A DNA stretch of 64,000 bases from Bradyrhizobium sp. 190 (GTDB taxonomy: Bacteria; Pseudomonadota; Alphaproteobacteria; Rhizobiales; Xanthobacteraceae). Below are positions 23,933 through 53,239 of this stretch, piece after piece. Each line of letters begins with the position of its first letter. Position 1 is the first letter of the stretch. The notes beneath the pieces are model-generated. The model did not search any database. It saw only the letters and a program-made list of their open reading frames with translations, and had not been told where the DNA came from. Made by a program: the position numbers and the translations under genes. The stretch spans positions 322,501-386,500 of the forward strand of contig NZ_JADPJL010000012.1 of assembly GCF_023073415.1 (NCBI RefSeq), in the 5' to 3' direction.

Positions 23933-24062
23933 TTACGAACCGGGAGCGGTTCGCCTTTGAACTGCTTGGCAGGGCAACTACGGGGATAAACTCGAAAAAT
24001 CTGTTATCTTGGATAAACCTGTGATTGAATCGCGGGATAATTTGATGATTGCGGGGGGAACA

Positions 24063-25442
24063 ATGGTTTCAAACAATGAATCTGTCAGGACGCAGGCTAT
24101 AGCTTCTGCGCTGGCGAGTGCGGAGCAGAACCCCGATGCTGAACGGATTCAGCTTCCATGGCGCGGATCTAATGTCAAAGCGACCGTCGTAAATATCCCC
24201 GTTGATGGAGTAGTGTTGAATCCTCGAAGCCACCGAATTCGAGCGCAACTTGAGTCCAGCCTGGACGCCGACCTCGTCAAGAGCGCACCGTTTGAACCTA
24301 GGGCCCAAGAAGTCATCACCGAGATTTTGCGACTCACTGACAAGTTTGATGATTTGAAGGCCAATCTCAGGGACGTTGGACAAACAGACCCTGGCGTAGT
24401 TACGCATGCGGGTCTGCTGGTCAATGCAAACACCCGATGCGTAGCGCTTCGAGACATAAATGCTGGGCATATTCGCGTAGCCGTCTTGCCTTCAGATGCG
24501 AGTGACGAGGACATTGACCGTTTGGAATTGAACCTCCAAATGGTGCGCGACTTTCGTCGCGAATATACGTTCACGAATGAACTCCTCTTCATCGAAGAGT
24601 TGGTGACCAAGTACAGATACAATTCCCTCGAAATCGCAATTGAGATGAATTGGGTATCGCGGTCGGACGGCGCGGCGACCCGGCGAGCTGAAGAAGGAGT
24701 TCAAGCCCGACTTAGAATGCTAGCGCTGGTGCGAGAGCTTCAGGCGCTCAGCGGAAATCGTTTGCGTCTCGTGAATTTCGACGCGGCTCGCCAGGCCATC
24801 AACGAGCTCGATGAGGAGTGCGAAGCTATCAAGCATCAAGACCCAGAGGGAGCTCGCCAAATTCGCGATATGCGTCTGGCGGGCTTATTGTCTGGCGCTG
24901 GTTATCGTGACCTTCGAGAAATTGACGAAGATTTTTTGGAAGAGTACCTGATCCCTGCTTTGGAGGAGCAGTCCCTCTTTCAAGGCAACGTGGAAAATAT
25001 CGTTCGGCCTCTTCCACCGAGGAACACGCAAAATTTAACGGGCTTGGACGTGTTGCAAGGCGATCAGGCTGAGACATCCGCCGGGACGCAAACTGCTGAA
25101 ACCTTACTGACCCTGCTGGCAGAGTCGGTCGGTCGCGATGTGGTGCTTGTACCTGGAACCGCAGATGCAACGATTGAAATCAACAGAGCCAGCTTCGTCG
25201 AGGAATTGAAGCAAGCAGTTGAAGCTGCTGCCGAAGATGCTCGTCTCAACAGGCAGCAAGGCAACTTGGTTGATCGGCCACGATCGTTTGTCCGAAAGGC
25301 CAGCAAGCAAATACGAAATGCCATCGAAGCTTACCAGCAGGCTCGCGACAATCCGCAGTTCGATGCTGATAAGTTCCTAGCTGCTGTAGCTGAACACTCG
25401 GCCGCCCATGAAGCACTCCAAAACTTGATTGGTCGCGAGTGA
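24063..25442 (+). CDS. ParB-like protein of a three-gene DNA-modification/defence operon
   Basis: A 459-residue protein. About residues 40-160 look like a diverged ParB/sulfiredoxin-fold domain: VDGVVLNPRSHRIRAQL, LRDVGQTDPGVVTHAG, and VNANTRCVALRD in the place of the canonical G-x-x-R-x-x-A signature. A ParB-type helix-turn-helix may follow (about 170-260, RREYTFTNELLFIEEL...SLEIAIEMNWVS), then helical, coiled C-terminal segments. ParB-fold proteins bind or cut DNA with nucleotide help, so it may be the target-recognition part. The ATG at 24063 has a GGGGGGAA site; in-frame starts 6 and 18 codons earlier exist. Its stop overlaps the next start by four bases. Base composition is visibly more A+T-rich than the chromosome. 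Confidence 0.75.
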   Translation: MVSNNESVRTQAIASALASAEQNPDAERIQLPWRGSNVKATVVNIPVDGVVLNPRSHRIRAQLESSLDADLVKSAPFEPRAQEVITEILRLTDKFDDLKANLRDVGQTDPGVVTHAGLLVNANTRCVALRDINAGHIRVAVLPSDASDEDIDRLELNLQMVRDFRREYTFTNELLFIEELVTKYRYNSLEIAIEMNWVSRSDGAATRRAEEGVQARLRMLALVRELQALSGNRLRLVNFDAARQAINELDEECEAIKHQDPEGARQIRDMRLAGLLSGAGYRDLREIDEDFLEEYLIPALEEQSLFQGNVENIVRPLPPRNTQNLTGLDVLQGDQAETSAGTQTAETLLTLLAESVGRDVVLVPGTADATIEINRASFVEELKQAVEAAAEDARLNRQQGNLVDRPRSFVRKASKQIRNAIEAYQQARDNPQFDADKFLAAVAEHSAAHEALQNLIGRE

Positions 25443-27322
25443 CAACAACCTCAGCTTTCCCATTGGTATCAATTGCCAGCAATAGCGCTGCTACTCAGGT
25501 AGTGGTTACACGCGGTCCAGATGTCCCGGACGTTTTCTGGACAAGACTACTAGCTGAATGGGGAATAGGTGGCGCGGATCCGGCGGCGCAAATATCCGTC
25601 CCCGTGGAGCGTTTTCTATCAAAATTGGAATGGCTACCTAGTTCCTGTCGAAGGTTTGGTGTTTCGCTCGGTTGGGATGACGGGGCAAGGAACCTTGTTC
25701 GAGCCATCCAGGCTGAACGAGCGGCTCTTGATCAAGCTTCGCGCGCTAACCCGCTTTCACCTGAAGCCGTGCGTGGGCGATTGGCCGGTGGGCGCTTCAC
25801 GCGTGCGTTGCGAGATTTTCAAGTTAGAGACCTTGGAAAGCTCTTGGCGCTACCGCACGGTGCCAATTTTTCAGTCCCCGGCGCTGGGAAGACAACGGTT
25901 GCATACGCGCTGTACGAGGCCGAACGCCTATCAGCCAAAGTAACTAGGTTACTCGTCGTTGCTCCCTTATCTGCCTATGATGCGTGGATGTCCGAGGCAC
26001 AGGACTGCTTCAGCGAGGCCCCTGTTGTGCATCGTTATGACGGAAGTTCAATTCCTGCCGACGCAGAGGTTTGCTTGGTAAACTACCAGAGACTGTCGTC
26101 AGCTTACGAAGACGTTGCTCGTTGGGCTTCTGATCGCCCGTGCCATGTCATTCTCGATGAGGCCCACAGAATGAAGCGGGGGCGGGCAGGCGAGTGGGGC
26201 AAGTCAACGTTGAACTTGGCCTATCTTGCTAGCCGTCGAGACGTGCTTACTGGAACGCCAGCACCCCAAAGCATCCGCGATCTGGAGGCCCTTTTGGATT
26301 TTGCATGGCCGGGGCAAGCAAGACGTATTCTGCCGGAACAAGTATTCCGGGCGGCACCTACACCGGAAGTTACCGGCGCTGTTGCGACAGCCGTACGCCC
26401 GTTTTTCGTTCGTACAACAAAATCTGATTTACGACTCACGGCTCCTCAGCACAGCGTCTTGCTCGTTCCGCTGGAGGGGCTTCAACGAGAAATCTATGAG
26501 GCGCTCAGAAATCAGTATGCTGGGCAGTTCTCCGTTACTAGGCGCGAGCGCACTGATTTTGCTCGCATGGGTGAAGTCGTCATGTACCTTCTTGAGGCGG
26601 CAACCAATCCGCAGCTATTGAATGTAGGTGGGTCAGAGTACGATCTTGTGGGTTTTCGGCTCCCACCAATCGTTATCCCTCCCGCCTCTGGATTGGCTGA
26701 TCTGCTTGCGAGATATTCTAGTTTCGAGACCCCCCGGAAGTTTATTGAGCTATTCAAGCTTGTTCGTGCAAACGCCGATCTTGGACGCAAAACTCTCATC
26801 TGGACCAATTTCGTACGAAATATTACGGCTCTCGAAACGGCTCTTGCCCGTTACAATCCTGCGGTGATCCACGGCGGAATACCGTCAGAGATATCGCAGC
26901 CGAACGCAGCTAGAAAGCGTGAAGACGAGCTCTCAAAATTCCGAAATTCTGCCGATTGTTTGGTTCTGCTGGCGAATCCCGCAGCAACGAGCGAAGGCGT
27001 AAGCTTGCACCTCCACTGTCATGATGCGATTTATTTGGATAGAACATTTAATGCAGGCCAGTACCTACAAAGCGTTGATCGTATTCACCGGTTGGGAATG
27101 CCGCCAGGCGAAGATACTCGAATTACATTCCTAGTGACCGAGGATACCATCGACCAATCCGTCGATGCTAGAATCCGTGAAAAAGCTGAACGGCTTGGGG
27201 CGATACTTGAAGATAATGACATTGCCACCATAGCGCTCCCCGACGAAGAAGATTACGGGCGTGTAATTGAGAACGACGCCGATCTCGCCGAGCTTTTCCG
27301 GCACATCCGGGGTGGCATGTGA
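25439..27322 (+). CDS. SNF2-family helicase/ATPase
   Basis: A 627-residue superfamily 2 motor of the SWI2/SNF2 class, which moves along double-stranded DNA. Walker A is SVPGAGKTT (about 145-153), Walker B is the DEAH of HVILDEAHRMK (about 240), motif III is LTGTPAPQS, and the second RecA lobe has NPAATSEGVSLH and the arginine-finger motif QSVDRIHRLGMP (about 545). An N-terminal segment of about 110 residues has no recognised domain. It starts with GTG overlapping the upstream stop (GTGA) and ends in another GTGA overlap with the methylase, so the three proteins are probably made in fixed ratio and act together. Confidence 0.93.
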   Translation: MTTTSAFPLVSIASNSAATQVVVTRGPDVPDVFWTRLLAEWGIGGADPAAQISVPVERFLSKLEWLPSSCRRFGVSLGWDDGARNLVRAIQAERAALDQASRANPLSPEAVRGRLAGGRFTRALRDFQVRDLGKLLALPHGANFSVPGAGKTTVAYALYEAERLSAKVTRLLVVAPLSAYDAWMSEAQDCFSEAPVVHRYDGSSIPADAEVCLVNYQRLSSAYEDVARWASDRPCHVILDEAHRMKRGRAGEWGKSTLNLAYLASRRDVLTGTPAPQSIRDLEALLDFAWPGQARRILPEQVFRAAPTPEVTGAVATAVRPFFVRTTKSDLRLTAPQHSVLLVPLEGLQREIYEALRNQYAGQFSVTRRERTDFARMGEVVMYLLEAATNPQLLNVGGSEYDLVGFRLPPIVIPPASGLADLLARYSSFETPRKFIELFKLVRANADLGRKTLIWTNFVRNITALETALARYNPAVIHGGIPSEISQPNAARKREDELSKFRNSADCLVLLANPAATSEGVSLHLHCHDAIYLDRTFNAGQYLQSVDRIHRLGMPPGEDTRITFLVTEDTIDQSVDARIREKAERLGAILEDNDIATIALPDEEDYGRVIENDADLAELFRHIRGGM

Positions 27323-29280
27323 CCCACACGTCGTTGCATATCCAGTCGCAGCGCTCAATTTCGGTAGTTACCGAGCCGAAATTGACGATAAAAAGTGTGC
27401 TCAGGCATCTCGACCAGAAGAAACTTAGTGAGGAGGTTGCGAAGGAGACGCGCAATCGCGAGGTGCATTTACCCCCAGTGAGCGTTTATCGCTGGTGGGC
27501 ACGTCGCACTCTTTCAGTTAATGGCGCTTTGTTGGATGCCGCGAGAAAAGAGCTTGAGCTCTTACCCGAAAATATGCTCGTGGCAGACCCTTTCGCAGGT
27601 GGCGGAGTAATTCCTCTTGCGGCTTTAAAGCAAGGACTCAGGGTATACGCTCAGGATCTCAATCCTTGGGTTGCTAAAGGGCTAGCCGCAATGCTCAGTC
27701 TTCCGACCGCCAAGCTATTGCGTGATGCTCGGCTTCAGCTTGTAGAGTTATCTGAGACGATTTCCGCCAAAGCTTATGGGACCAAGTTTGCCGATGGTGA
27801 GCATGCCAAGATTAGCCAAACCCTAAGAGTCGCGGTGTCGCCTTGCTCTAAATGCGGATTAGAACACCGACTGTTTCCGCATGCTTTGGTTTCGTTGACT
27901 AAGCGCAAGGAGTTGAAGACTGGAAAGGCGGTTCTTGCCTGCTCCAGAGGCCATCTATTTTTCGGCAGCCGTTCGCGAAAAACAGAATGCCCCAGCTGCC
28001 GTGAGATCGTTAATCCCCGCACGACCTATCTCAAGGACCGAATAGTGACTTGCCCCTCATGCAAGCACGAGGAGTCGCTCTCTGAGCGCGCTTCTCTCAA
28101 ATCTTGGCGATGGGATGTAGCGCTTGTCGAGCGCACCAACGGTAAACGTCGTGAAATAGGTCTACCAACTTCCGCAGAGCTCTCGCAGGCCTCTTCGAAA
28201 ACGTGGAGGCCGAGTCGCACTCTAGGGCGAATCCCTGAATCACAGGAAACGAGGGTTTTGACCAGGCACGGGTTTCGCCTTTGGGAGGATATATATCCAA
28301 ACCGCCAGCGTCACGTTCTTGAATATCTCTTGCGCATTAGTCGAGCTTTCAAGAATCCAAGGGTCAGGGAAGCAGTGGAGATGGCGATCCTCGGTAGCAC
28401 CGAGATGGCAGGCCTCTTATCTCGATGGGATCGATTTTATCTCAAGAGTTTTGAGAGTATGTCATCTCATCGATTCAATTTCTCGACTTTGGTGGCTGAA
28501 CCAAACGTTATCGGCGCTGGTGCTGCCGGACGCGGAACAGTTTTTCGAAGGCTGATGTTGTTTGAGAGAGCTGCTGCCTGGCTTGAGCAAAATGACTTTA
28601 CTAAGCGCGGCGTGAAAATTCTTCAGTCCAGCCAATCGAGGTTCCGTAAGAGTCCCAGTAGGGATGCGACGATTGTCGTCGGTAGTTCCGAAAGAATGCT
28701 GTTACCTGACGCAACGGTAGATCTGATACTGACCGACCCGCCCTATTACGATGATGTTCAATATCATGAGCTGTCTCTGCCTTTCCGAGCTTGGGCTCGG
28801 CTGAGCAAAGAAAGAGGTAAAGGAGAGGCTGTTGTAATTCCACATGTGAAAGATTTGGCGAAGCACGCTCGCTACCGAGGCGTGCTTACAAGGGTCTTTA
28901 AAGAATTTCATCGTGTGCTGAAGCCGTCAGGTAGGCTCATCTTTAGTTACGCTAATCGCGAACCCGCCGCGTGGGTAAATCTGTTCGCAGCTTTGAAGGC
29001 GACTGAATTCAAGCCGATCGGATATACGATTGTTCAAAGCGAGAATGAGCACGATCTACAAAAGCGCAATGGACGATCGTGCCGTCTTGATTTGATTTTG
29101 GAATTAGCTCGATCGACCTCCGGCCAGATTTTACAATGGCGTCCAAAACCCGTATTTAAAACGAATGAGGAGAAATATTTGATCTCGGTGGGCGAAGCAT
29201 TCCTTAGATCAGGGGAGATGGTCAACGGATGGGAAGCCCACCTTGTAGCTCAATTGAAGACAGAAATATTCGTTGAGTGA
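27319..29280 (+). CDS. DUF1156-type DNA methylase with zinc ribbons
   Basis: A 653-residue DNA methyltransferase, probably adenine- or N4-cytosine-specific. An N-terminal block with VYRWWARRTLSVNGA resembles DUF1156 and precedes the SAM motif VADPFAGGGVIPL (about 89-101). Three CxxC zinc-ribbon pairs interrupt the domain at about 174, 225 and 245 (CSKC, CPSC, CPSC). The catalytic motif LTDPPYYDDVQYHE is at about 471-484, followed by LKPSGRLIFSYANRE. It starts at a GTG overlapping the helicase stop. It is the modification arm of the ParB-SNF2 operon, or its DNA-marking effector. Confidence 0.9.
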   Translation: MTHTSLHIQSQRSISVVTEPKLTIKSVLRHLDQKKLSEEVAKETRNREVHLPPVSVYRWWARRTLSVNGALLDAARKELELLPENMLVADPFAGGGVIPLAALKQGLRVYAQDLNPWVAKGLAAMLSLPTAKLLRDARLQLVELSETISAKAYGTKFADGEHAKISQTLRVAVSPCSKCGLEHRLFPHALVSLTKRKELKTGKAVLACSRGHLFFGSRSRKTECPSCREIVNPRTTYLKDRIVTCPSCKHEESLSERASLKSWRWDVALVERTNGKRREIGLPTSAELSQASSKTWRPSRTLGRIPESQETRVLTRHGFRLWEDIYPNRQRHVLEYLLRISRAFKNPRVREAVEMAILGSTEMAGLLSRWDRFYLKSFESMSSHRFNFSTLVAEPNVIGAGAAGRGTVFRRLMLFERAAAWLEQNDFTKRGVKILQSSQSRFRKSPSRDATIVVGSSERMLLPDATVDLILTDPPYYDDVQYHELSLPFRAWARLSKERGKGEAVVIPHVKDLAKHARYRGVLTRVFKEFHRVLKPSGRLIFSYANREPAAWVNLFAALKATEFKPIGYTIVQSENEHDLQKRNGRSCRLDLILELARSTSGQILQWRPKPVFKTNEEKYLISVGEAFLRSGEMVNGWEAHLVAQLKTEIFVE

Positions 29281-29778
29281 TTTGCTTCTAGTGCGCTGTC
29301 GGAGGCGTTCAGTTTGCTGATGAAGCGGGCCCGCTCAGTTTTCAGGTCGGGGATGCCCCGGTGGAAGTCCGTGCAGAACTCGAACGGATTGTCGAACCCT
29401 TCATGGTGCTGACAGTAGACGACTCTGTTCCAGAGAATTTTAAAAGCGTGTCTAGTCGCCCCATAACTTGAAGCTCTGTTCTTTCTTCGTATCAGTATTT
29501 CAGCAGAAACTTCGGCTTTCGGAGGATCCCGCGAACACGCGTCACTTGCCGGAGGCGCTCGGTCCCGCATTTGCCTCCGGCATCGCTATCACTAATGCGC
29601 GCGCCGAGTGCCTTGCTAACCGGTCGCGGGACTCCGAGCTTGCTTTGCCGCGTTCGCCAGAGCCCTGCTGGCGGTGCTAAACGCAGGTCGCCGCGACTCA
29701 CTCCTTTTGTGGTCCACCCAAGCTGTGCGAAATTTGCCACGGGGGGTCTCAAGACTGGATAGTGTGTGGGCAGCCCCT
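29281..29778. other. Gap between two defence operons, possible gene debris
   Basis: Nothing is firmly coding over 500 bases. A minus-strand frame at 29250-29570 contains YGATRHAFKILWNRVVYCQHHEG and looks more protein-like than random, so it may be a gene remnant, but I cannot name it. Confidence 0.4.
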
Positions 29779-29822
29779 ATTGTCGAAACGGACAATTGAC
29801 GTCAGTCTGTCAAAAAATGACA
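29779..29822. promoter_or_regulatory. Stacked palindromes, candidate operator for the Dcm HTH domain
   Basis: Three adjacent inverted repeats: ATTGTC-N6-GACAAT (29779-29796), TGACGTCA (29797-29804) and TGTCA-N5-TGACA (29808-29822). They end 22 bases before the start of the HTH-bearing methyltransferase. Methyltransferases of the SsoII/EcoRII kind are known to repress their own genes through such a domain. Confidence 0.6.
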
Positions 29823-29843
29823 CAAAACTGATTCGGGGCTTTC

Positions 29844-31112
29844 ATGGCACTAAAACGAACAAAAAAGTTGACGGAGTTTAAGCGGCTGCGAGAGCTGGCT
29901 GGACTCACCCTGCCCGAAGCCGCTGACGCTGTTAAGGTAGATCTCCGCACTGGCTATCGATACGAACGCGGTGAAACAAAGCCCACCAAGTTGGCTTTGG
30001 ATAAGCTTCGGGAGCTGGCGGAGCCCCGGTTGATGCCGCTGACATCTGCCGCCAACAATTTTCGCTTTATCGACTTGTTCGCCGGAATCGGCGGACTTCG
30101 CATGGGATTTGAGTCTATTGGCGGGCGTTGTGTCTTCACGTCCGAATGGGACAAGAAATGCCAGGAGACATACGCCCTTAATTTCCCGGACAATCACCCG
30201 ATTGCTGGCGACATCCGCCCCTACTCGGAGCATCCCGAACGCATTCCGGAGCACGATCTCTTGGTGGCGGGTTTTCCCTGCCAGCCGTTTTCGATCGCGG
30301 GTGTTTCCAAGAAGAATGCGCTGGGACGCCCGCACGGGTTTCTTTGCGATACGCAGGGAACGCTCTTCTTCGACACTGCGCAAATCATTGCGCACCACCG
30401 GCCAGCAGCCTTCGTACTTGAGAACGTCAAGAACCTGGAGCGGCATGACAAGGGGCGCACCTTCGCTACCATTATAAACGTGCTGGAGAACGAGCTGGGC
30501 TACCACGTTCAGTACCGCGTCATCGGTTCGCAGTCTTGGGTCCCGCAGAAGCGGGAACGAATTTTCATTGTCGGTTTCCGGGAGAAGACTGACTTTGATC
30601 TCAATGCACTGAAGGTTCCGCTGGCGGGCCGGGGTCCGAAACTGGGAACCATTTTGCAACACCCCGATGAGGTCGACCCCAAGTACACTCTCACCGCCCA
30701 TCTCTGGAAATATCTTCAGGATTACAAGGCAAAGCACACAGCTGCAGGCAATGGTTTCGGCTTCAGTCTCTTTGGGCCGGACGACGTGACCCGCACCTTG
30801 TCAGCCAGATATTACAAAGATGGCTCGGAAATCCTGATTGCACAAAACGGCAATCGGCCGCGTCGCCTGACTCCCAAAGAGTGCGCCCGCCTGATGGGCT
30901 TCGAGACCAGCAAGCGTCAGTTCAAGATTTGCGTGTCGGACACCCAGGCCTACAAGCAGTTCGGCAACGCTGTCGTTGTGCCGGTGGTCGAATTTATCGC
31001 TAAAGCCATGAAACCTCATATCGAGGCAGCGCTGCAGAAGCGTACCTCGAAGAAAGAGCCGGTTCGTAAGGTCACTCGTCCTGAAAAACCGGCTGCATTG
31101 ATGTATGGCTGA
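29844..31112 (+). CDS. C5-cytosine DNA methyltransferase with N-terminal HTH domain
   Basis: A 422-residue Dcm-type enzyme, modification arm of a type II system. Residues 1-60 form an XRE-like helix-turn-helix (LRELAGLTLPEAADAVKVD..TGYRYERGE). The methyltransferase has all key motifs: I DLFAGIGGLRMGF (about 77), IV GFPCQPFS with the catalytic Cys (about 142), VI ENVKNL (about 192), VIII QKRERIFIVGF (about 234) and X QFGNAVVVP (about 372). The partner Vsr and an MvaI/BcnI-type nuclease suggest a CCWGG or CCSGG target. The HTH plus upstream palindromes imply autoregulation. Its end overlaps vsr by eight bases. Confidence 0.95.
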   Translation: MALKRTKKLTEFKRLRELAGLTLPEAADAVKVDLRTGYRYERGETKPTKLALDKLRELAEPRLMPLTSAANNFRFIDLFAGIGGLRMGFESIGGRCVFTSEWDKKCQETYALNFPDNHPIAGDIRPYSEHPERIPEHDLLVAGFPCQPFSIAGVSKKNALGRPHGFLCDTQGTLFFDTAQIIAHHRPAAFVLENVKNLERHDKGRTFATIINVLENELGYHVQYRVIGSQSWVPQKRERIFIVGFREKTDFDLNALKVPLAGRGPKLGTILQHPDEVDPKYTLTAHLWKYLQDYKAKHTAAGNGFGFSLFGPDDVTRTLSARYYKDGSEILIAQNGNRPRRLTPKECARLMGFETSKRQFKICVSDTQAYKQFGNAVVVPVVEFIAKAMKPHIEAALQKRTSKKEPVRKVTRPEKPAALMYG

Positions 31113-31560
31113 CGTCGTCACGCCCGAAGTGCGAAGCCGGATGATGTCCGGCATTCGCAGCACCAACACCAGGCCCGAACTGATCATTCGACGTGGCCTG
31201 CATGGAATCGGATTCCGCTATCGTCTTCACGCAGCCAGCCTACCCGGCAAGCCCGACCTTGTCTTTCCCCGCTACGGAGCGGTTATTTTCGTTCACGGAT
31301 GTTTCTGGCACGGTCACGATTGCCACCTTTTCAAATGGCCTTCGAGCCGCATTGATTTCTGGAAGCAGAAAATCTCACGCAATCAAGTTGTCGATGCGCG
31401 CAATGAGGCCGCTGTGGCCGAGAAGGGCTGGCGCTATGCAGTCGTGTGGGAATGTGCGCTCAAAGGCCGTTACAGGCGACCGCAGACTGACGTGATCAGG
31501 GATTGCGCAGGCTGGCTTCGCTCCCGGAAACCCCATCTTGAGATCCGGGGCACCGCCTGA
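31105..31560 (+). CDS. vsr: Very short patch repair endonuclease Vsr
   Basis: A 151-residue nickase that cuts next to T:G mismatches made when 5-methylcytosine is deaminated, protecting the genome from mutation at methylated sites. Every key residue known in E. coli Vsr sits at the same number here: the catalytic Asp51 (KPDLVFP), His64, Cys66, His69, His71 and Cys73 (HGCFWHGHDCH) and Cys117 (WECALKGR), the latter forming the zinc site. It overlaps the methyltransferase gene by eight bases and the nuclease gene by one, so it is part of the same operon. It implies that the methylated site has the modified C in a context Vsr can read. Confidence 0.97.
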   Translation: MADVVTPEVRSRMMSGIRSTNTRPELIIRRGLHGIGFRYRLHAASLPGKPDLVFPRYGAVIFVHGCFWHGHDCHLFKWPSSRIDFWKQKISRNQVVDARNEAAVAEKGWRYAVVWECALKGRYRRPQTDVIRDCAGWLRSRKPHLEIRGTA

Positions 31561-32882
31561 TGTTTTCACTTAAGCAACTCCGCGAGGCGCTGGCGCAGCA
31601 TGGCGTCACTCAGCTCTTGTTTAAGGAGCTTGCTGCGAACGACAATTCCAAGAACCAGCCCTATCTCGGGGGCAACCTCGAAATTCTCAACTTGCTTCCT
31701 ATGGGCGAAGTCAGGGAAGAAACCACCCCTTCGGGAAAGACAGGCCTAAAGGCGCCGCTGCCTTTGCACTGGTTGCGGCCTGACGGCTCGCTTACGCCCG
31801 CCCCTAACACGCAGATTATTCTCTATCCCCAGTATCCGGAAATTCGCATGTCGGGATTTCTGAAAGGTGCGCAGGGCGGCCCGAACGAGCTGATGACAGT
31901 ACGCCAGGCCGGACGCATGCTGTTCCTCGGCATAACGTCGGATCGCCGCATTGTCGGCTGGGTCACTGCGCCAGACAGCCCTCTGGCGGATCAAGTCAGG
32001 CACCTCGGCGAGCTCAAGCAGACCGGCGTTTTCCGGCACATCCCCATCGGCACCGCTGACACATCACGTGAACGTCTCATCCAGCGATTACTCTCCATTC
32101 ACCAGATGGGATGGATTGCGTCCCAACGCCTCGATGCAGCGGGCTCATTCTGTCCCTGCAACGGCTCTAACTGCGGCGGCTATACACTTGAGGCGCATCT
32201 TGGGGTCATCCCTAACGGCAAGGCAGAGCCCGATTTCGAAGGCTGGGAAATCAAGGGCCACTCCGTGACGGATTTCGTTCGTCTTGGCTCGGGCAACCTG
32301 ACCCTGATGACGCCAGAGCCGACCGGAGGCCTGTACAAACAGCAAGGCGCGGAAGCCTTCGTGCGTCGGTACGGTTATGCGGACCAGTCTGGTATTATCG
32401 ACCGCCTCAACTTTTCCAGCCCTCACCGTTACGGCATGCGCAACGAGAAGACGGGCCTGACGCTTCAGTTTATCGGTTATGACGTTGAACGGAATAGCAT
32501 CACCGATCCGAAGGGCGGGTTCACCCTCGCCGACGATCGTGGAAATGAAGCCGCGACCTGGCATTTCGCGGGCCTGATCGAACACTGGAACAGAAAGCAC
32601 GCGAAGGCTGCGTATGTGCCTTACAAGGCGCGCAAGGATCCCGCGCAGGAGTATAGCTACGGCGGCATCGTCAGACTGGCGGAAGACACCGATTTTCTGC
32701 GCTTTCTGAAAGCGATGGCCGAACGTGCAGTGATTTATGACCCTGGTATTAAGCTTGAAGGCGCGGGGAGCAGTAAGCCGACGGTCAAACGTCGGAGTCA
32801 ATTCCGGGTCAAATCAGCAGATATTGAAGTGTTATATGCCAACACTTCCTCCCAGAATCTTCTGACAGGAGGTGCACCATGA
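31560..32882 (+). CDS. MvaI/BcnI-family restriction endonuclease
   Basis: A 440-residue protein that should be the cutting enzyme of the system. The PD-(D/E)xK active site is Asp225, Glu230 and Lys232 in EPDFEGWEIKGHS, preceded by the characteristic cysteine-rich CPCNGSNCGGYTLEA (about 198-212). MvaI and BcnI are monomers that nick CCWGG or CCSGG strand by strand. This protein is longer than those two, with an extra N-terminal region of about 190 residues that may regulate it or bind a partner. The ATG overlaps the vsr stop by one base; its own stop overlaps the next small gene as ATGA. Confidence 0.9.
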   Translation: MFSLKQLREALAQHGVTQLLFKELAANDNSKNQPYLGGNLEILNLLPMGEVREETTPSGKTGLKAPLPLHWLRPDGSLTPAPNTQIILYPQYPEIRMSGFLKGAQGGPNELMTVRQAGRMLFLGITSDRRIVGWVTAPDSPLADQVRHLGELKQTGVFRHIPIGTADTSRERLIQRLLSIHQMGWIASQRLDAAGSFCPCNGSNCGGYTLEAHLGVIPNGKAEPDFEGWEIKGHSVTDFVRLGSGNLTLMTPEPTGGLYKQQGAEAFVRRYGYADQSGIIDRLNFSSPHRYGMRNEKTGLTLQFIGYDVERNSITDPKGGFTLADDRGNEAATWHFAGLIEHWNRKHAKAAYVPYKARKDPAQEYSYGGIVRLAEDTDFLRFLKAMAERAVIYDPGIKLEGAGSSKPTVKRRSQFRVKSADIEVLYANTSSQNLLTGGAP

Positions 32883-33043
32883 TGTGCATTGCCAGCACAC
32901 GAGCCCTAGTAAGAAGTGCGTTGCAGCCACGGGCACCCCATAGCCACCTAGACACTGCAGAAATGACCTGCAACAATCAGCGGATGTGTGAAATTCCCGC
33001 CTGGCCAGTCCCGAATGGCGCCAAGAGAATATTGGTGCGATGA
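32879..33043 (+). CDS. Small coupled protein inside the restriction operon (54 aa)
   Basis: A 54-residue frame that fills the gap between the endonuclease and the GHKL ATPase. It has a perfect AGGAGG at 32867-32872, six bases from its ATG. The ATG overlaps the endonuclease stop (ATGA) and its own stop overlaps the ATPase start (ATGA), so ribosomes can pass through the whole operon without a gap. The product has four Cys (MMCIAS, MTCNNQRMCEI) and no membrane segment. It could be a real small partner or only a translated bridge that couples the two large genes. No family is recognised. Confidence 0.6.
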   Translation: MMCIASTRALVRSALQPRAPHSHLDTAEMTCNNQRMCEIPAWPVPNGAKRILVR

Positions 33044-35190
33044 GCGACCTTGTAAACGTCAGTCTGCCCTTTCGGCCTCGTGCCCGGCTACTTCAATTGC
33101 TCGGCGACCAGCTAATCGGTTCGCCAAGACTTGCGGTGTTTGAGCTGGTCAAGAACGCCTACGACGCCGATGCCGAGCAGGTTACCGTTACCATTGAGGA
33201 TCTCGGAACGAATGACGCTTCGATAACCGTCGAGGACGACGGCGAGGGAATGACGATCGACACCATAAAGAATATCTGGCTGGTACCAGCTCATGACCAC
33301 AGGGAGTTGCAACGCCTTGCGAAGAAGCGAACACGCCTCAACCGACTGCCGCTCGGCGAAAAAGGAGTCGGACGCTTCGCTGTTCACAAGCTGGGTGACC
33401 ACATTGAGCTGATAACTCGGGCGAAAAACAGCGACGAATGCGTCGTGAAGATTGACTGGTCATCACTCATCGAGAAGGGTTTTCTCTCGGATGCCAAGGT
33501 GACGATCCGGACAAGGACACCGACCGTTTTTAAAGGCAGGAATACCGGAACGCGCATCATCATCAGTAAACTTCGCGAAAATGACTGGTCAAGAGGCGAC
33601 GTCAGAAGACTCTTTCGACAAATCACGTCAATTTCGTCTCCCTTCGAAGAGCGCTCAGATCGCTTTGAGGCTTCCCTCCATGTTCCAGATCATCCCGACT
33701 GGATTAAAAGCGTACCGGACGTCGAAACCCTGCTTGGTCGCGCTCCATGGAAATTTACGTTCAGCATCAGCGCTGATGGCAAGTTGAACTGGACGTACGA
33801 GTTCCGAGGAATAGCCGCTATCAAATTGCCCGCACGGACAATCAAGAAGCGTTCCGAAACGCTTCTACTGTCCGACGTACGGGAGGATACTGCCGGGCTT
33901 GTCCGCAAGGGAAAAGGACGCGTTACAGCCGACCAGGCCTTTTTGAAAGGCATAGGACCAGTCAAAGGCCAATTTTACATCTTCGACCGCGATCGTGCAG
34001 TGTTGAACAAGCTGGGTGACAGTCAGTTAATCCAGAACTATCTCGACGAAAACGGCGGCATTCGCGTCTATCGCGATGGCATACGGGTTTATAATTATGG
34101 CGAGCCCGGTGATGACTGGCTTGGGCTTGACTTACGGCGCGTAAATGCGCCCACCCGGAATATTAGCCGCAACATCATTGTTGGTGCGCTCGACCTTTCC
34201 CTGGAGGATAGCGTTCTCCTCAAGGAGAAGACAAACCGCGAAGGGTTTATTGAGACCGATGCCTACGAGAGGTTCAAGAGAGTGGTGCTTGGTGCGCTTG
34301 GTCTAGCCGAGACAGAGCGAAAGATAGACAAGGACAGTATTCGTCAGCTTACCACGAAGGGCTATGACCCTGAGGTCGAGAGAATACAAAAACCGCTGGA
34401 AGAGCTTCGTGTTGCTGTTCGTCGTCACAAGCTATCTAACGAACTGGAGCCGCTTATCGACAAGGTTGAGCGTGACTACGCCGAGATGCGCGATACTATG
34501 CTGCGCGCCGGACTTTCCGGCATGGGACTGGCGGTCGTTTTCCATGAGATCGAGCAAGGCGTCCGTGTCCTTTTTAATGCAATAGAATCCGGCGGCAACC
34601 GCGATAGCATCCAGACACAGGCGCGAGAGCTTGTGCGCATCCTTGACGGCTTTACCGAGCTACTCAGAAAGGGCGACCGGCAGACCCACGCGCTAAATCA
34701 TCTTATCAAGCGCGCACGAGACTTGGCGTCGCCGAGGTTCAGGATCCATAATGTTCGCCTGGTGTGTCCCGCTCTTGAACCGGGTGCACCTGAATTATCA
34801 GCGAATTTTGCATACAGCTTGGTTCTCGGTGCGATGACGAATATCATCGACAATGCCATCTTCTGGCTCAAGGCACGGTGGCCGGAAGAAACGCAAAAGC
34901 CCTCAAAGAGGGCCATCTACATTGGCATAGACACCGACCTCGCTCCCGGCTCACCTGCAATTGTCATCGCTGACACCGGCCCTGGCTTTCAGGACGACCC
35001 GGAGCGCCTTGTTCGGCCATTCTTCAGTCGCCGACCGGACGGTATGGGCGTGGGTCTCTATTATTCGAACATGGTTATGGAGATCAATGGCGGCCGATTG
35101 CTGTTTCCTGACCGGGACAGTGTCGATCTGCCTGAGGAATTTGACGGCGCAATACTTGCTCTCATCTTTGATAGTCCGAGGAAAAAATGA
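33040..35190 (+). CDS. Dual-GHKL ATPase (MORC/Hsp90-like plus histidine-kinase-like)
   Basis: A 716-residue protein with two ATP-binding domains. The first, at about 15-200, is MORC/MutL/Hsp90-like, with the N box ELVKNAYDADA (Glu35, Asn39), VEDDGEGM and GEKGVGRFA. The last, at about 585-710, is a histidine-kinase type: NIIDNAIFW (601-609), IADTGPGF, FFSRRPDGMGVGLYYSN. Before it, a helical part has His502 in VVFHEIEQGV, a good phospho-acceptor candidate. GHKL ATPases related to MutL and MORC are known associates of restriction systems. The next gene encodes a receiver domain, so this one may be a kinase sensing DNA state. It starts in an ATGA overlap. Confidence 0.88.
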   Translation: MSDLVNVSLPFRPRARLLQLLGDQLIGSPRLAVFELVKNAYDADAEQVTVTIEDLGTNDASITVEDDGEGMTIDTIKNIWLVPAHDHRELQRLAKKRTRLNRLPLGEKGVGRFAVHKLGDHIELITRAKNSDECVVKIDWSSLIEKGFLSDAKVTIRTRTPTVFKGRNTGTRIIISKLRENDWSRGDVRRLFRQITSISSPFEERSDRFEASLHVPDHPDWIKSVPDVETLLGRAPWKFTFSISADGKLNWTYEFRGIAAIKLPARTIKKRSETLLLSDVREDTAGLVRKGKGRVTADQAFLKGIGPVKGQFYIFDRDRAVLNKLGDSQLIQNYLDENGGIRVYRDGIRVYNYGEPGDDWLGLDLRRVNAPTRNISRNIIVGALDLSLEDSVLLKEKTNREGFIETDAYERFKRVVLGALGLAETERKIDKDSIRQLTTKGYDPEVERIQKPLEELRVAVRRHKLSNELEPLIDKVERDYAEMRDTMLRAGLSGMGLAVVFHEIEQGVRVLFNAIESGGNRDSIQTQARELVRILDGFTELLRKGDRQTHALNHLIKRARDLASPRFRIHNVRLVCPALEPGAPELSANFAYSLVLGAMTNIIDNAIFWLKARWPEETQKPSKRAIYIGIDTDLAPGSPAIVIADTGPGFQDDPERLVRPFFSRRPDGMGVGLYYSNMVMEINGGRLLFPDRDSVDLPEEFDGAILALIFDSPRKK

Positions 35191-36518
35191 TCTTTGCAGC
35201 ACCGCGTTTTGTGGTGGTTGACGATAAGGCAGAGCATCTCAAGGCTATTGTCGACGTCTTTCAGACCCTTGGTTCTCCTTGCATTGGTGTCCACTACGAT
35301 CCCAAAAAGGATTTGGATGCCAGCGTGTTCAGCGGGGTCCGCGTGCTCTTCATGGACCTGCATCTTGTGGACGGAGCAGCCACTACTGATCAAACTCGCC
35401 ATTATGCGAGCATAGCGAGCCTTCTGGAGACCAACCTCAGCGCAACGGGGGGGCCGTACGTATTAGTGATCTGGACCGAGCATCCCCAGCACAAGGATGA
35501 ACTCCGCGAGTATCTGGACAAGGCCCTTGATCCTGAAAAGCCGCACCTCTTTCCGCTTGCCGTTCTCGCTTTGTCGAAGACGAGCTATATCGACACATCG
35601 AGCGGAGCCACAAAGGATGCTTCAGCGCTTCGAAAAGCAGTTCTCGAATCTGTAGAGCAAAATCCGCAAATGGCGGCGCTTCTCACTTGGGAAGCTGACG
35701 TCTTGGCCGCTGCCGGGGATACACTTGCGCAGCTTCAGGCACTGGTCCCGGCCGCTTCAAGGTCAAGCGCAACATACCCCGCAGCCCTGAACGATTTGCT
35801 GAGCCTGCTGGCGCGCGAGGCAGTAGGGAAAAAGAACGTCAATGCCGATCCCCGCAGTGCACTCAACCATATTTTGGTGCCTTTGCTGGCGGACCGCATC
35901 CTGAACGCAGCCACGTCCAAGGATACCAAGGAAATTTGGAAAAAGGCTGTAACACGAGCTGAAGATCCCAAACTTTCCAACGCCGACGATGCTGCGTCCG
36001 CCTTGATCAACGGTATGCTTCACGTTGCATTACCCGATGCGGAGACGATCCCGCCCGACGCTTGGGGTGCCATCGTTGAAGTACCGGAAAAATGGCTGAC
36101 GGATGAGGGTCTCAGCGGTTTCTTCGACCTTAACAAGAATCAACTGCTGACGGATGTCTTCAAGATAAAGCCTGAAAAATTCCAGGACGTTGGCTGGTTT
36201 CTCATAAGGATCGGTGCTGCCTGCGACTACGCTCAAAAGCGTGCCGGGCCGGTGCCTTATGTCCTCACAATGGCAGTTCCCAAAGATGGCAGGTCTAAGG
36301 GTATGAAGCTGCCCGAGGCGGAGTGGACCTCTCCATTATTGATGCAGACGGAGACAGGGCCGTATTATCTGTCGTCCAATTCGAGGTTCATCCTCAGCCT
36401 TACGCAAAAGACCATTAAGGATCTTAAGGTCCTGGGACGACTCCGCGAGCAGATTCTGATGGAGTTGATTGTGCACGCCTCGTCGTACACGGCGCGTCCC
36501 GGCATCATCAGAGTTTAG
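35187..36518 (+). CDS. Response-regulator receiver protein of the restriction operon
   Basis: A 443-residue protein with an N-terminal receiver domain that has all canonical residues: Asp12 and Asp13 (VVVDDKAEH), the phospho-acceptor Asp57 (LFMDLHL), Thr97 (VIWTEHP) and Lys131 (LALSKTSY). The remaining 300 residues are helical, with no DNA-binding domain that I recognise (NDLLSLLAREAVG, SALNHILVPLLADRIL), so the output is probably protein-protein. It starts in an ATGA overlap with the GHKL kinase-like gene and ends the operon. I infer a phosphorelay that controls the nuclease or signals infection. Confidence 0.88.
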   Translation: MIFAAPRFVVVDDKAEHLKAIVDVFQTLGSPCIGVHYDPKKDLDASVFSGVRVLFMDLHLVDGAATTDQTRHYASIASLLETNLSATGGPYVLVIWTEHPQHKDELREYLDKALDPEKPHLFPLAVLALSKTSYIDTSSGATKDASALRKAVLESVEQNPQMAALLTWEADVLAAAGDTLAQLQALVPAASRSSATYPAALNDLLSLLAREAVGKKNVNADPRSALNHILVPLLADRILNAATSKDTKEIWKKAVTRAEDPKLSNADDAASALINGMLHVALPDAETIPPDAWGAIVEVPEKWLTDEGLSGFFDLNKNQLLTDVFKIKPEKFQDVGWFLIRIGAACDYAQKRAGPVPYVLTMAVPKDGRSKGMKLPEAEWTSPLLMQTETGPYYLSSNSRFILSLTQKTIKDLKVLGRLREQILMELIVHASSYTARPGIIRV

Positions 36519-51205: not shown

Positions 51206-51299
51206 CGGAACTCCAAAGGATTCTTTGGCTGGCCTGCATTCTTAACTTGAAATTTGTTCTCAGTTTGTTCTCTATAGGCTCGACCCAGCGAGGTGAGCC

Positions 51300-51605
51300 A
51301 TGGACAACCGAATTAACGAAATCCGCAAGAAAATCAGAGCATTAAGGGTCAGCATGCTTCAGGCTGAGACCATCATGCATGACCAGATAAACCGGGACGA
51401 GGAATGCTCGGAAATCGCGGGAGAGGTTATGGGGATGCGCGCCGCGATGAGCCTGCTGATCCAGGAGCGTGCCCGGCTGGGCGATCGGGAGCCTATCCTG
51501 GTCAACAGCTTCTTCATTCCGCGCCGCGCACCGGCAGCGCCAAGGCCGGTTGCTACGCGCCCGATGAAGCGTCACCTGGTCCCCGCTGAAAAACGTGTCC
51601 GATGA
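51300..51605 (+). CDS. Small hypothetical protein (101 aa)
   Basis: A 101-residue protein with a helical N-terminal part (INEIRKKIRALRVSMLQAETIMHDQ, VMGMRAAMSLLIQERARLGDREP) and a Pro/Arg-rich tail. GAGGTGAG precedes the ATG. It is the type of small cytoplasmic protein found repeatedly in Bradyrhizobium accessory DNA. Its stop overlaps the next small frame. Confidence 0.65.
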   Translation: MDNRINEIRKKIRALRVSMLQAETIMHDQINRDEECSEIAGEVMGMRAAMSLLIQERARLGDREPILVNSFFIPRRAPAAPRPVATRPMKRHLVPAEKRVR

Positions 51606-52118: not shown

Positions 52119-52345
52119 CTAAACCTCCCATCTTCGGGCAATATAACGCCGAAGGAACCGTTGGGTTTCATCAAAAAACTCTTGGTATCATTGGGTTTAG
52201 TCCGCTAGCGGACTCAGGAACGGATTCGGATTTCGGCGCTTTAATTTCTGTCCCTCCCGAGGGCGTCTACCTTGGCCCGTCGCATTCGTCCCCCGGTGCG
52301 GCGGGCCACTTTTATGTTAGTCTGCCGTTTTGTTTGAGTTGAGTG

Positions 52346-53239
52346 ATGGTCAAGCGTACCGAAATGCCGGGGTTCATTAAGCCCCAGCTTGCGACCCTGA
52401 AGGCCAAAGCGCCCAAGGGCGACCAATGGATTCACGAAATCAAATACGACGGCTACCGCGTCCAAGTTCATGTCAACAGCGGTAGGAAGAAGGTCTACAC
52501 CCGCAATGGGTTGGACTGGACCACACGCTTCTCTCTCATCGCCGGCGCCTTCGACATCTCCGGCCAAGCCATAATCGACGGGGAAGTGGTGGTCGTCCAT
52601 GAAGGCCGAACAAACTTCTCCGAACTGCAAGCAGAGCTGGCGGCCGGCGGGCAAGACCGGCTCGTGTTCTACGCCTTCGACCTTCTCTGGCGTGATGGCG
52701 ACCTTCGCAAACTCCCTCAGCTCGGACGCAAGCAGTTGCTGCTGGACCTGATTGGCGAGAACGATATCGAGACGCCGGTCCTCTTCAGCGAACACCTGAG
52801 CGGCGACGGGCAGGAGATGTTTGAGCATGCGGCGAAGCTGGGTTGGGAAGGTATTCTCTCCAAGCGGGCAGACGCGCCGTACCGATCGGAGCGGACTGAG
52901 GCGTGGCTGAAAATCAAAACCTCCCAGCGCGGAAAATTCCCGATCATCGGGTTCGTGAAAGATCCTACGGGCGTTGCCGCTCTCTATCTCGGCAAGCGCG
53001 AAGGAAAAGAACTGGTCTACATGGGCAAGGTCGGCACGGGGTGGTCCCGTACGGTTTCAAGCCAGATTAGAAAACAGCTTGATACCGTGGTCAGCCCGAA
53101 GTCCAAGCTAACCAAACCAATCAAGAAGCCGAAGGCCACGTGGGTGGAGCCGTCATTTGTCGCGGACGTTGAGTATCGCGATATTACGTCGGAAGGTCTA
53201 CTCCGGCAGAGTTCGTTCAAGGGGCTGACGAAGCGCTAA
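52346..53239 (+). CDS. ATP-dependent DNA ligase (LigD ligase-domain type)
   Basis: A 297-residue ligase made of only the catalytic and OB domains. The AMP-accepting Lys is Lys33 in IHEIKYDGYRVQVH; other motifs are RNGLDWTTRF, IIDGEVVV, FYAFDLLW, WEGILSKRADAPY and WLKIKTSQR. It resembles the ligase part of the bacterial end-joining protein LigD, without polymerase and nuclease domains and without a Ku gene nearby. On an element it could reseal DNA after transfer or help host end-joining. GTG 52343 is an alternative start. Confidence 0.92.
   Translation: MVKRTEMPGFIKPQLATLKAKAPKGDQWIHEIKYDGYRVQVHVNSGRKKVYTRNGLDWTTRFSLIAGAFDISGQAIIDGEVVVVHEGRTNFSELQAELAAGGQDRLVFYAFDLLWRDGDLRKLPQLGRKQLLLDLIGENDIETPVLFSEHLSGDGQEMFEHAAKLGWEGILSKRADAPYRSERTEAWLKIKTSQRGKFPIIGFVKDPTGVAALYLGKREGKELVYMGKVGTGWSRTVSSQIRKQLDTVVSPKSKLTKPIKKPKATWVEPSFVADVEYRDITSEGLLRQSSFKGLTKR

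Follow-up and report, generated by a model that had tools for sequence, protein, structure and literature searches.

C proteins of restriction-modification (R-M) systems carry an XRE-type HTH and act at a palindromic sequence in the promoter of the R-M genes. The methyltransferase can also be the repressor of its own gene, and M.EcoRII, M1.LlaJI, M.MspI and M.ScrFIA have been named as self-repressing (PMC3978073). For M.SsoII, two monomers are described as binding one site cooperatively; the HTH domains occupy the site itself while the flanks are covered by the methyltransferase domains, 48 and 52 bases are protected and the enzyme's own promoter is blocked. The site of Ecl18kI is GGACA-N3-TGTCC, and the regulatory core of Ecl18kI and SsoII is GACA-N3-TGTC (PMC3695355, PMC3978073, PMC6100179). 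For the alphaproteobacteria, a LexA box of GAAC-N7-GAAC or GTTC-N7-GTTC is reported (PMC3091678), and control by LexA through GTTC-N7-GTTC has been suspected for vsrA of Caulobacter (PMC12907096).

The window analysed here, a stretch of 64,000 nucleotides from Bradyrhizobium sp. 190, holds an R-M operon headed by a methyltransferase of the same fused type. Upstream of it, positions 29787–29825 are read, with a probability of roughly three in four, as a worn version of the operator through which HTH-Dcm enzymes repress their own genes, by which the operon would be held down through binding of its own first product.

The operon and its neighbourhood

Three genes on the plus strand make up the operon:

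29844–31112, plus strand: HTH-Dcm, an XRE-type HTH (about residues 11–55) fused to a C5 cytosine methyltransferase (Pfam, TIGR00675)
31105–31560, plus strand: Vsr mismatch endonuclease, overlapping the end of HTH-Dcm (TIGR00632)
31560–32882, plus strand: restriction endonuclease of the MvaI/BcnI family, from the operon's third gene (PF15515, MvaI_BcnI, E 5.3e-41)

The HTH-Dcm gene is an open frame, and both it and its HTH are recognised by family models, the N-terminal 71 residues matching Pfam HTH_31 at 28.4 bits (cut-off 27) and the protein matching DNA_methylase (E 1.3e-81) as well as TIGR00675. With a dcm-family C5 methyltransferase, Vsr and a PF15515 nuclease all present, the locus is a Dcm-Vsr-nuclease type II R-M operon. 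MvaI and EcoRII, of different nuclease families, are CCWGG cutters, and BcnI, of the same family as MvaI, reads CCSGG; on the strength of these families, CCWGG is presumed to be the target of the window methyltransferase. Vsr is present in 89 of the 93 HTH-bearing loci that have 900 nt after Dcm. The protein family common to the relatives downstream of Vsr (40 proteins, one cluster) contained EcoRII-C in all four members scanned, and a relative of the window's MvaI/BcnI nuclease was found in 2 of the 53 HTH-bearing loci with 2500 nt after Dcm. Two nuclease families thus stand under one promoter design, which fits the methyltransferase, and not the nuclease, being the regulator.

A divergent nuclease gene, as in the SsoII R-M layout, was not found, the window nuclease being co-directional and third in the operon. 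No separate small C gene was seen either, the seven small ORFs flanking the operon giving no Pfam family up to E 0.1, and a family scan of nine larger window proteins returned no stand-alone HTH. The upstream neighbours are mutually unrelated in 38 of 48 loci, and the operator element described below therefore belongs to the HTH-Dcm operon.

On either side of the operon lie genes of possible defence function. The region 24009–29280 encodes a protein without family, an SNF2 helicase and a methyltransferase with a weak likeness to an anti-phage DUF1156 protein (62.9 bits, cut-off 1000), and is perhaps a further defence operon. In 33040–36518, a gene for a GHKL ATPase, whose N-terminus weakly resembles the BbrUII/HgiDII restriction family (88.7 bits, cut-off 550), overlaps one for a 443-aa protein that has no family match; the two may form a defence or regulatory pair. 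Four Dcm relatives elsewhere (L088, L104, L110 and L117) contain in-frame TGA codons and are perhaps broken genes.

The 39-bp element and its copy in the window

Relatives of the locus came from three sources: genome contigs gave 65 loci, 30 of 397 genomes from the order had a match (the own genome among them), and so did 21 of 385 genomes from the class, counting the own genome and one earlier genome. One locus with too short an upstream stretch (L092), the duplicates L069 and L098 and one second place in G254 without a locus were left out. Among the 40 plasmid matches listed, 8 of the 27 alphaproteobacterial and 11 of the 13 other loci were used, together with one phage locus (KL3) and, as further loci, seven of 50 matches listed, one of the seven (L275) then being left out. 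The same-genus loci L118–L126 stand outside the 98 HTH-bearing and 14 HTH-less loci counted below, and upstream of their genes L118 and L119 have the same letters as the Bradyrhizobium records L002 and L003. Locus L091, which was counted as HTH-less, may have an HTH that has diverged. The 85 loci on which the profile, the tests of co-variation and the counts at the flanks were based are those with the operator at no more than two mismatches, and some of these analyses used fewer loci.

Alignment of the DNA before the start codons of the relatives gives a 39-bp nested palindrome, CTGGG-N8-TGNCA-N3-TGNCA-N8-C(C/A)CAG, with a TTG standing 5–7 bases upstream of it. The corresponding features of the window are as follows:

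29734–29763, plus strand: candidate alternative sigma-70-like promoter TTGCCA-N18-GATAGT (9/12; 50 shuffles gave a mean of 0.0, sd 0.2)
29779–29822, no strand: three palindromes described in the earlier note (exact strings; first two not conserved)
29780–29785, plus strand: predicted -35, TTGTCG (TTG column counts in relatives; putative promoter assignment)
29787–29825, plus strand: degenerate copy of the 39-bp operator (profile of 83 relatives; best match of its own genome)
29787–29791, plus strand: left outer element AACGG, worn (alignment of relatives)
29800–29812, plus strand: inner half-sites CGTCA-gtc-TGTCA, presumed HTH contact (alignment of relatives; Ecl18kI site, record L247)
29803–29808, plus strand: predicted -10, CAGTCT, inside the inner operator (spacing, 17 bp after the -35; weak match)
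29821–29825, plus strand: right outer element CACAA, consensus C(C/A)CAG (alignment of relatives)
29829–29835, plus strand: TGATTCG, second recurring leader element (33 GATTC and 2 GAATC in 71 leaders)

The window copy reads AACGG-acaattga-CGTCA-gtc-TGTCA-aaaaatga-CACAA, its right half intact except for the last base and its left half worn, and CGTCA-gtc-TGTCA occupies the place of GACA-N3-TGTC in Ecl18kI and SsoII. Against the profile, which was built from 83 relatives with the window and L002 excluded, it scores 30.3 bits, and the next unrelated place on either strand of the 64 kb scores 1.9. With a sequence model of 39 relatives (from 39 of 50 listed sites), by which 150 of 654 first-look candidates of the 8.6-Mb own genome were scored, it ranks first among those scored (24.7 bits, E 2.4e-4), the runner-up reaching 13.0 bits (E 1.29) and no second comparable site appearing. 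Its symmetry is poor: the inner repeat, GNCA-N3-TGNC in the relatives, has two of five arm positions mismatched and the outer arms have four of five, and its architecture score of 11 is at background, being reached by 967 of 2999 random 110-mers. The copy is recognised through homology and not through its own palindromes. In so degenerate a state it may bind poorly, and the operators of the relatives are more interesting than this worn copy.

The earlier note had seen the binding site of the HTH in three stacked palindromes, 22 bases before the start. The strings ATTGTC-N6-GACAAT (29779–29796), TGACGTCA (29797–29804) and TGTCA-N5-TGACA (29808–29822) are there letter for letter, and the gap from the third to the ATG of HTH-Dcm at 29844 is 21 bases. 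As a stack they are nothing special, since clusters of a disjoint 6-bp inverted repeat, 8-bp palindrome and 5-bp inverted repeat within 44 bp lie at four separate places of the window (this one included), where the three kinds of repeat total 349, 325 and 987, respectively. In the same register, the first palindrome is kept in 0 of 84 relatives (at no more than one mismatch of 6), the second in 0 of 84 and the third in 13 of 84, so that, exact strings and right placement notwithstanding, three stacked HTH-Dcm binding sites are a very improbable reading; the note had itself named absence from similar operons as speaking against its palindromes, and such absence holds for the first two. What is conserved follows other borders. 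In the first palindrome, ATTGTC is largely the conserved -35-like TTG, and GACAAT belongs to a stretch that is not conserved; the second, likewise not conserved, ends on the left inner half-site; and the third coincides with the right half of the conserved 39-bp element. The site is real, with its boundaries mis-drawn, and autocontrol of the SsoII kind is the right sort of reading for it.

Under the preferred reading, an autorepressor operator, two HTH-Dcm molecules, a stoichiometry taken by analogy with M.SsoII, would bind with their HTH domains on the inner half-sites 29800–29804 and 29808–29812 and their methyltransferase domains over the flanks, where the relatives carry CTGGG and CCCAG. 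The bound operator would cover the putative promoter and exclude RNA polymerase, by which expression of all three genes, from HTH-Dcm through Vsr to the MvaI/BcnI nuclease, would be lowered at the level of transcription; binding, repression and promoter position are all predicted. Within the predicted -35, the TTG columns are conserved in 85 aligned loci at T 76, T 67 and G 65, and CAGTCT, the predicted -10, is not among the sites listed by a scan for the sigma-70 consensus. For the window copy, autocontrol alone is predicted since the LexA box found in many relatives is missing, and this autocontrol is probably weak because the left half of the operator is worn.

The wear of the left half could also mean that the site is a decayed relic, too worn there for binding, in an operon run from another promoter without autocontrol. 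The promoter-like site at 29734–29763, the operator symmetry at background level and the missing LexA box (the best match in 63 nt has three mismatches, the commonest class in random stretches) would all suit a relic, which is nevertheless unlikely given the nearly intact right half, the score against the profile of relatives and an HTH-Dcm gene that is open and recognised together with its HTH.

A reading at the RNA level, in which stacked leader hairpins closed by GCCCC (29773) and GGGGC (29836) hide the ribosome-binding site, draws on the folding of 29770–29860 at -25.2 kcal/mol (z -3.44; 1 of 200 shuffles as low). A tendency of the leader to fold is expected from palindromic DNA. No consensus base pair was found in 39 aligned operators, z lies below -2 in 18 of 87 leaders (mean -1.1), the eight folds compared differ, and most of the hairpins would be untranscribed from the predicted -10. 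A conserved RNA structure was rejected for want of a consensus fold in the relatives, and control by hidden ribosome binding has little to recommend it.

Roughly half of the leaders have the second leader element, TGATTCG, between the operator and the start codon, often 4–5 or 12–13 bases after CCCAG. GANTC occurs in 49 of 87 stretches, where shuffles give 18.2; selection for a CcrM (GANTC) site is unlikely, as 71 leaders have 33 GATTC, 2 GAATC and no GACTC or GAGTC.

Operator, HTH and outer elements among relatives

At no more than two mismatches, the operator is present in 85 of the 98 unique HTH-bearing loci (own included; 39 with zero mismatches, and 13 of the 98 without the operator at this threshold) and in none of the 14 unique HTH-less loci, whose best match has three. 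A looser architecture score of at least 13/18, in 330-nt scans, is reached by 88 of the 98 and 2 of the 14, respectively. In 37 of 74 sites, the central base of one inner half-site is complementary to that of the other, a count that none of 2000 shuffles reached (17.9 expected, sd 3.5). With methyltransferase distance held constant, the distance between operator cores tracks that between HTH domains (partial r 0.276, 0/500 permutations, 83 loci, ancestry ignored), and by parts, ancestry again ignored, the tie to the HTH is 0.243 for the right half, 0.256 for the central bases (0/300 each) and 0.159 for the left half, which also shows some tie to the methyltransferase (0.102, 20/300). At the level of single residues, and likewise with ancestry ignored, Arg at the position of Ecl18kI R38 goes with GACA-N3-TGTC (10/14 vs 10/70), and Ser at the R35 position goes with G (7/13 vs 0/71). 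Binding by Ecl18kI is reported to be abolished by R35A and by R38A; aligned with M.Ecl18kI, the HTH of the window keeps R35 and has Tyr at the R38 position.

Co-occurrence, the co-variation of half-site and HTH, the alignment with Ecl18kI together with the form of its site, and the correlations in the recognition helix make the HTH of the methyltransferase the likely ligand of the operator. Autoregulation by HTH-Dcm is well supported at the sequence level, because the operator is present with the HTH and absent without it, its inner pair has the expected form and its half-sites co-vary with the HTH. A family of methyltransferases fused to their regulator, spread over several phyla, is thereby given an explicit operator that can be tested, and the residues at the Ecl18kI positions 35 and 38, set against the middle base of the half-site, provide a candidate recognition code.

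Beyond the alphaproteobacteria, the N8 profile failed on seven loci (L251–L257; scores -14.7 to -0.1). The same architecture with N9, spotted post hoc and in essence CTGGG-N9-GGACA-N3-TGTCC-N9-CCCAG, is found in betaproteobacteria, gammaproteobacteria and actinobacteria. With an architecture score that allows N7 to N10, 11 of 12 non-alphaproteobacterial HTH-methyltransferase loci (L251–L257, L268–L271 and L277) reach at least 15/18, all with this post hoc N9; the score is also reached by 11 of 2999 random 110-mers. Because L255 closely resembles L270, and L257 closely resembles L277, the number of independent loci is smaller. The remaining locus, L271, scores 11, its annotated start cutting the site. 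Among EcoRII-like loci, L266 (annotated as modification methylase EcoRII) scores 15, L267 and L276, which have the same letters, score 13, and L273 also scores 13, while L272 and L274, which are without a neighbouring nuclease gene, score 8 and have no such site. Ecl18kI itself scores 13, with poor outer elements. Present at symmetric N8 or N9 in actinobacteria and three proteobacterial classes, the outer element looks old; no description of it was found in the excerpts of the SsoII literature.

The letters of CTGGG/CCCAG are four of the five of the presumed CCWGG target, the distance between outer elements follows that between methyltransferases and not that between HTH domains (0.400 vs -0.062), and a C before CTGG is missing in one set of loci (0/26 vs 12/59, p 0.015). 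From these three points comes the hypothesis that the methyltransferase domain reads the outer element. It is kept at that level since the right spacer follows the methyltransferase likewise (0.330), little is accounted for by the target-recognition region on its own (both sides 0.163, left side 0.087) and the test on the right side, for a G after CCAG, is not significant (3/36 vs 10/49, p 0.22).

LexA boxes and comparison with known systems

Of 87 loci, a set that includes the own locus, 63 have an exact LexA box within 150 nt (20 shuffle rounds: mean 0.6, max 2), oriented one way in 50 cases and the other way in 13. At no more than one mismatch and within 60 nt of the operator, the box is found in 68 of 85 loci, against 99 of 2000 random stretches, and in 43 of 63 boxes the distance to the operator is 11–14 bp. 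The own lexA gene carries the box GAACACATATCGAAC. Within the genus, L002/L118 lacks a box and 7 of 9 other loci have one; L125, one of the two others without, was matched only from residue 82. Seven HTH-bearing loci of alphaproteobacterial plasmids served as an out-of-sample set, of which four score 38.6–43.1 against the operator profile and have an exact box, and the three without an exact box score 33.7 (L264), 20.2 (L260) and 21.7 (L261); the HTH-less plasmid locus L262 has a profile score of -15.7. Elsewhere in the window, an exact LexA-type box at 51256–51270 on the minus strand stands before a 101-aa ORF (51300–51605) and a LigD-type ATP-dependent DNA ligase (52343–53239), possibly an SOS-controlled repair locus.

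As a part of the upstream neighbour, the box was ruled out, because the neighbours differ and its distance to the operator stays much the same. The box is kept in 5 of the 14 HTH-less loci, and in L044, L054, L066 and L090, all HTH-less, it stands where the operator is missing at no more than two mismatches; the two modules are thus separable. That another host regulator such as LexA binds the operator in place of HTH-Dcm could be argued from the closeness of the box in the relatives, and is scarcely credible when the box is a separate element, outlasts the operator in HTH-less loci and is absent from the window.

The alphaproteobacterial LexA box was not found in the betaproteobacterial, gammaproteobacterial or actinobacterial loci scanned, and neither an exact E. 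coli-type box (CTGT-N8-ACAG) nor an exact Gram-positive-type box (GAAC-N4-GTTC) was found in 15 plasmid loci. L252, L253, L266 and L267 have an E. coli-type box with one mismatch that ends 12–15 bp ahead of the outer element (random 45-mers: 59/4000), and the letters of L276 are identical to those of L267. These boxes were spotted by eye at a late stage, all are inexact, and the stretch in L267 and L273 can also be read as another palindrome. That the SOS input follows the host's own LexA is accordingly a lead only. The boxes of the alphaproteobacterial relatives suggest that, besides their own methyltransferase, DNA damage may switch R-M operons in many members of this class; such double control of alphaproteobacterial R-M operons was not reported among the literature matches listed, where the nearest case is the vsr gene of Caulobacter.

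A fuller model for the family is offered tentatively, as possible but short of probable: the HTH would read the inner half-sites, the methyltransferase would dock on the outer CTGGG/CCCAG as on a pseudo-substrate that cannot be methylated, and a LexA box of a type matching the host would add a link to DNA damage. If so, occupancy of the promoter would compete directly with methylation, and the LexA box would be of the alphaproteobacterial type, with perhaps the E. coli type in some betaproteobacterial and gammaproteobacterial copies.

Among known systems, M.SsoII and M.Ecl18kI resemble the present family in the fusion of an HTH to a C5 methyltransferase, in the position of the site at the methyltransferase promoter and in an inner repeat, GACA-N3-TGTC, that has the form and spacing of the relatives' inner pair. 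The SsoII-type autoregulatory site proposed in the earlier note finds support here in the sequence comparisons, namely in the 49% identity between M.Ecl18kI and the window protein over 389 aligned positions (HTH included), in this likeness of the inner pair and in the co-occurrence of operator and HTH. SsoII differs in that it is reported to read CCNGG and to have a divergent nuclease gene, which is stimulated, whereas the genes of the window operon, Vsr included, are co-directional. Ecl18kI differs in its flanks, TTGGA and CACTT at N9, which are without the symmetric CTGGG/CCCAG and are reported to be bound non-specifically. M.EcoRII belongs to a CCWGG-type system. It is named as repressing its own gene (PMC3978073), and the EcoRII-annotated L266 carries CTGGG-N9-TGATA-N3-TTTCA-N9-CCCAA; however, M.EcoRII has a longer N-terminus of other sequence, and the inner half-site is GATA and not GNCA. 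C proteins resemble the window regulator in acting at an R-M promoter palindrome through an XRE-type HTH and differ from it in that the regulator of the window is fused to the enzyme. In Caulobacter, the suspected LexA box lies inside the vsrA gene, which is unlinked to a methyltransferase (PMC12907096), whereas in the relatives described here it stands at the promoter of a Dcm-Vsr-nuclease operon.
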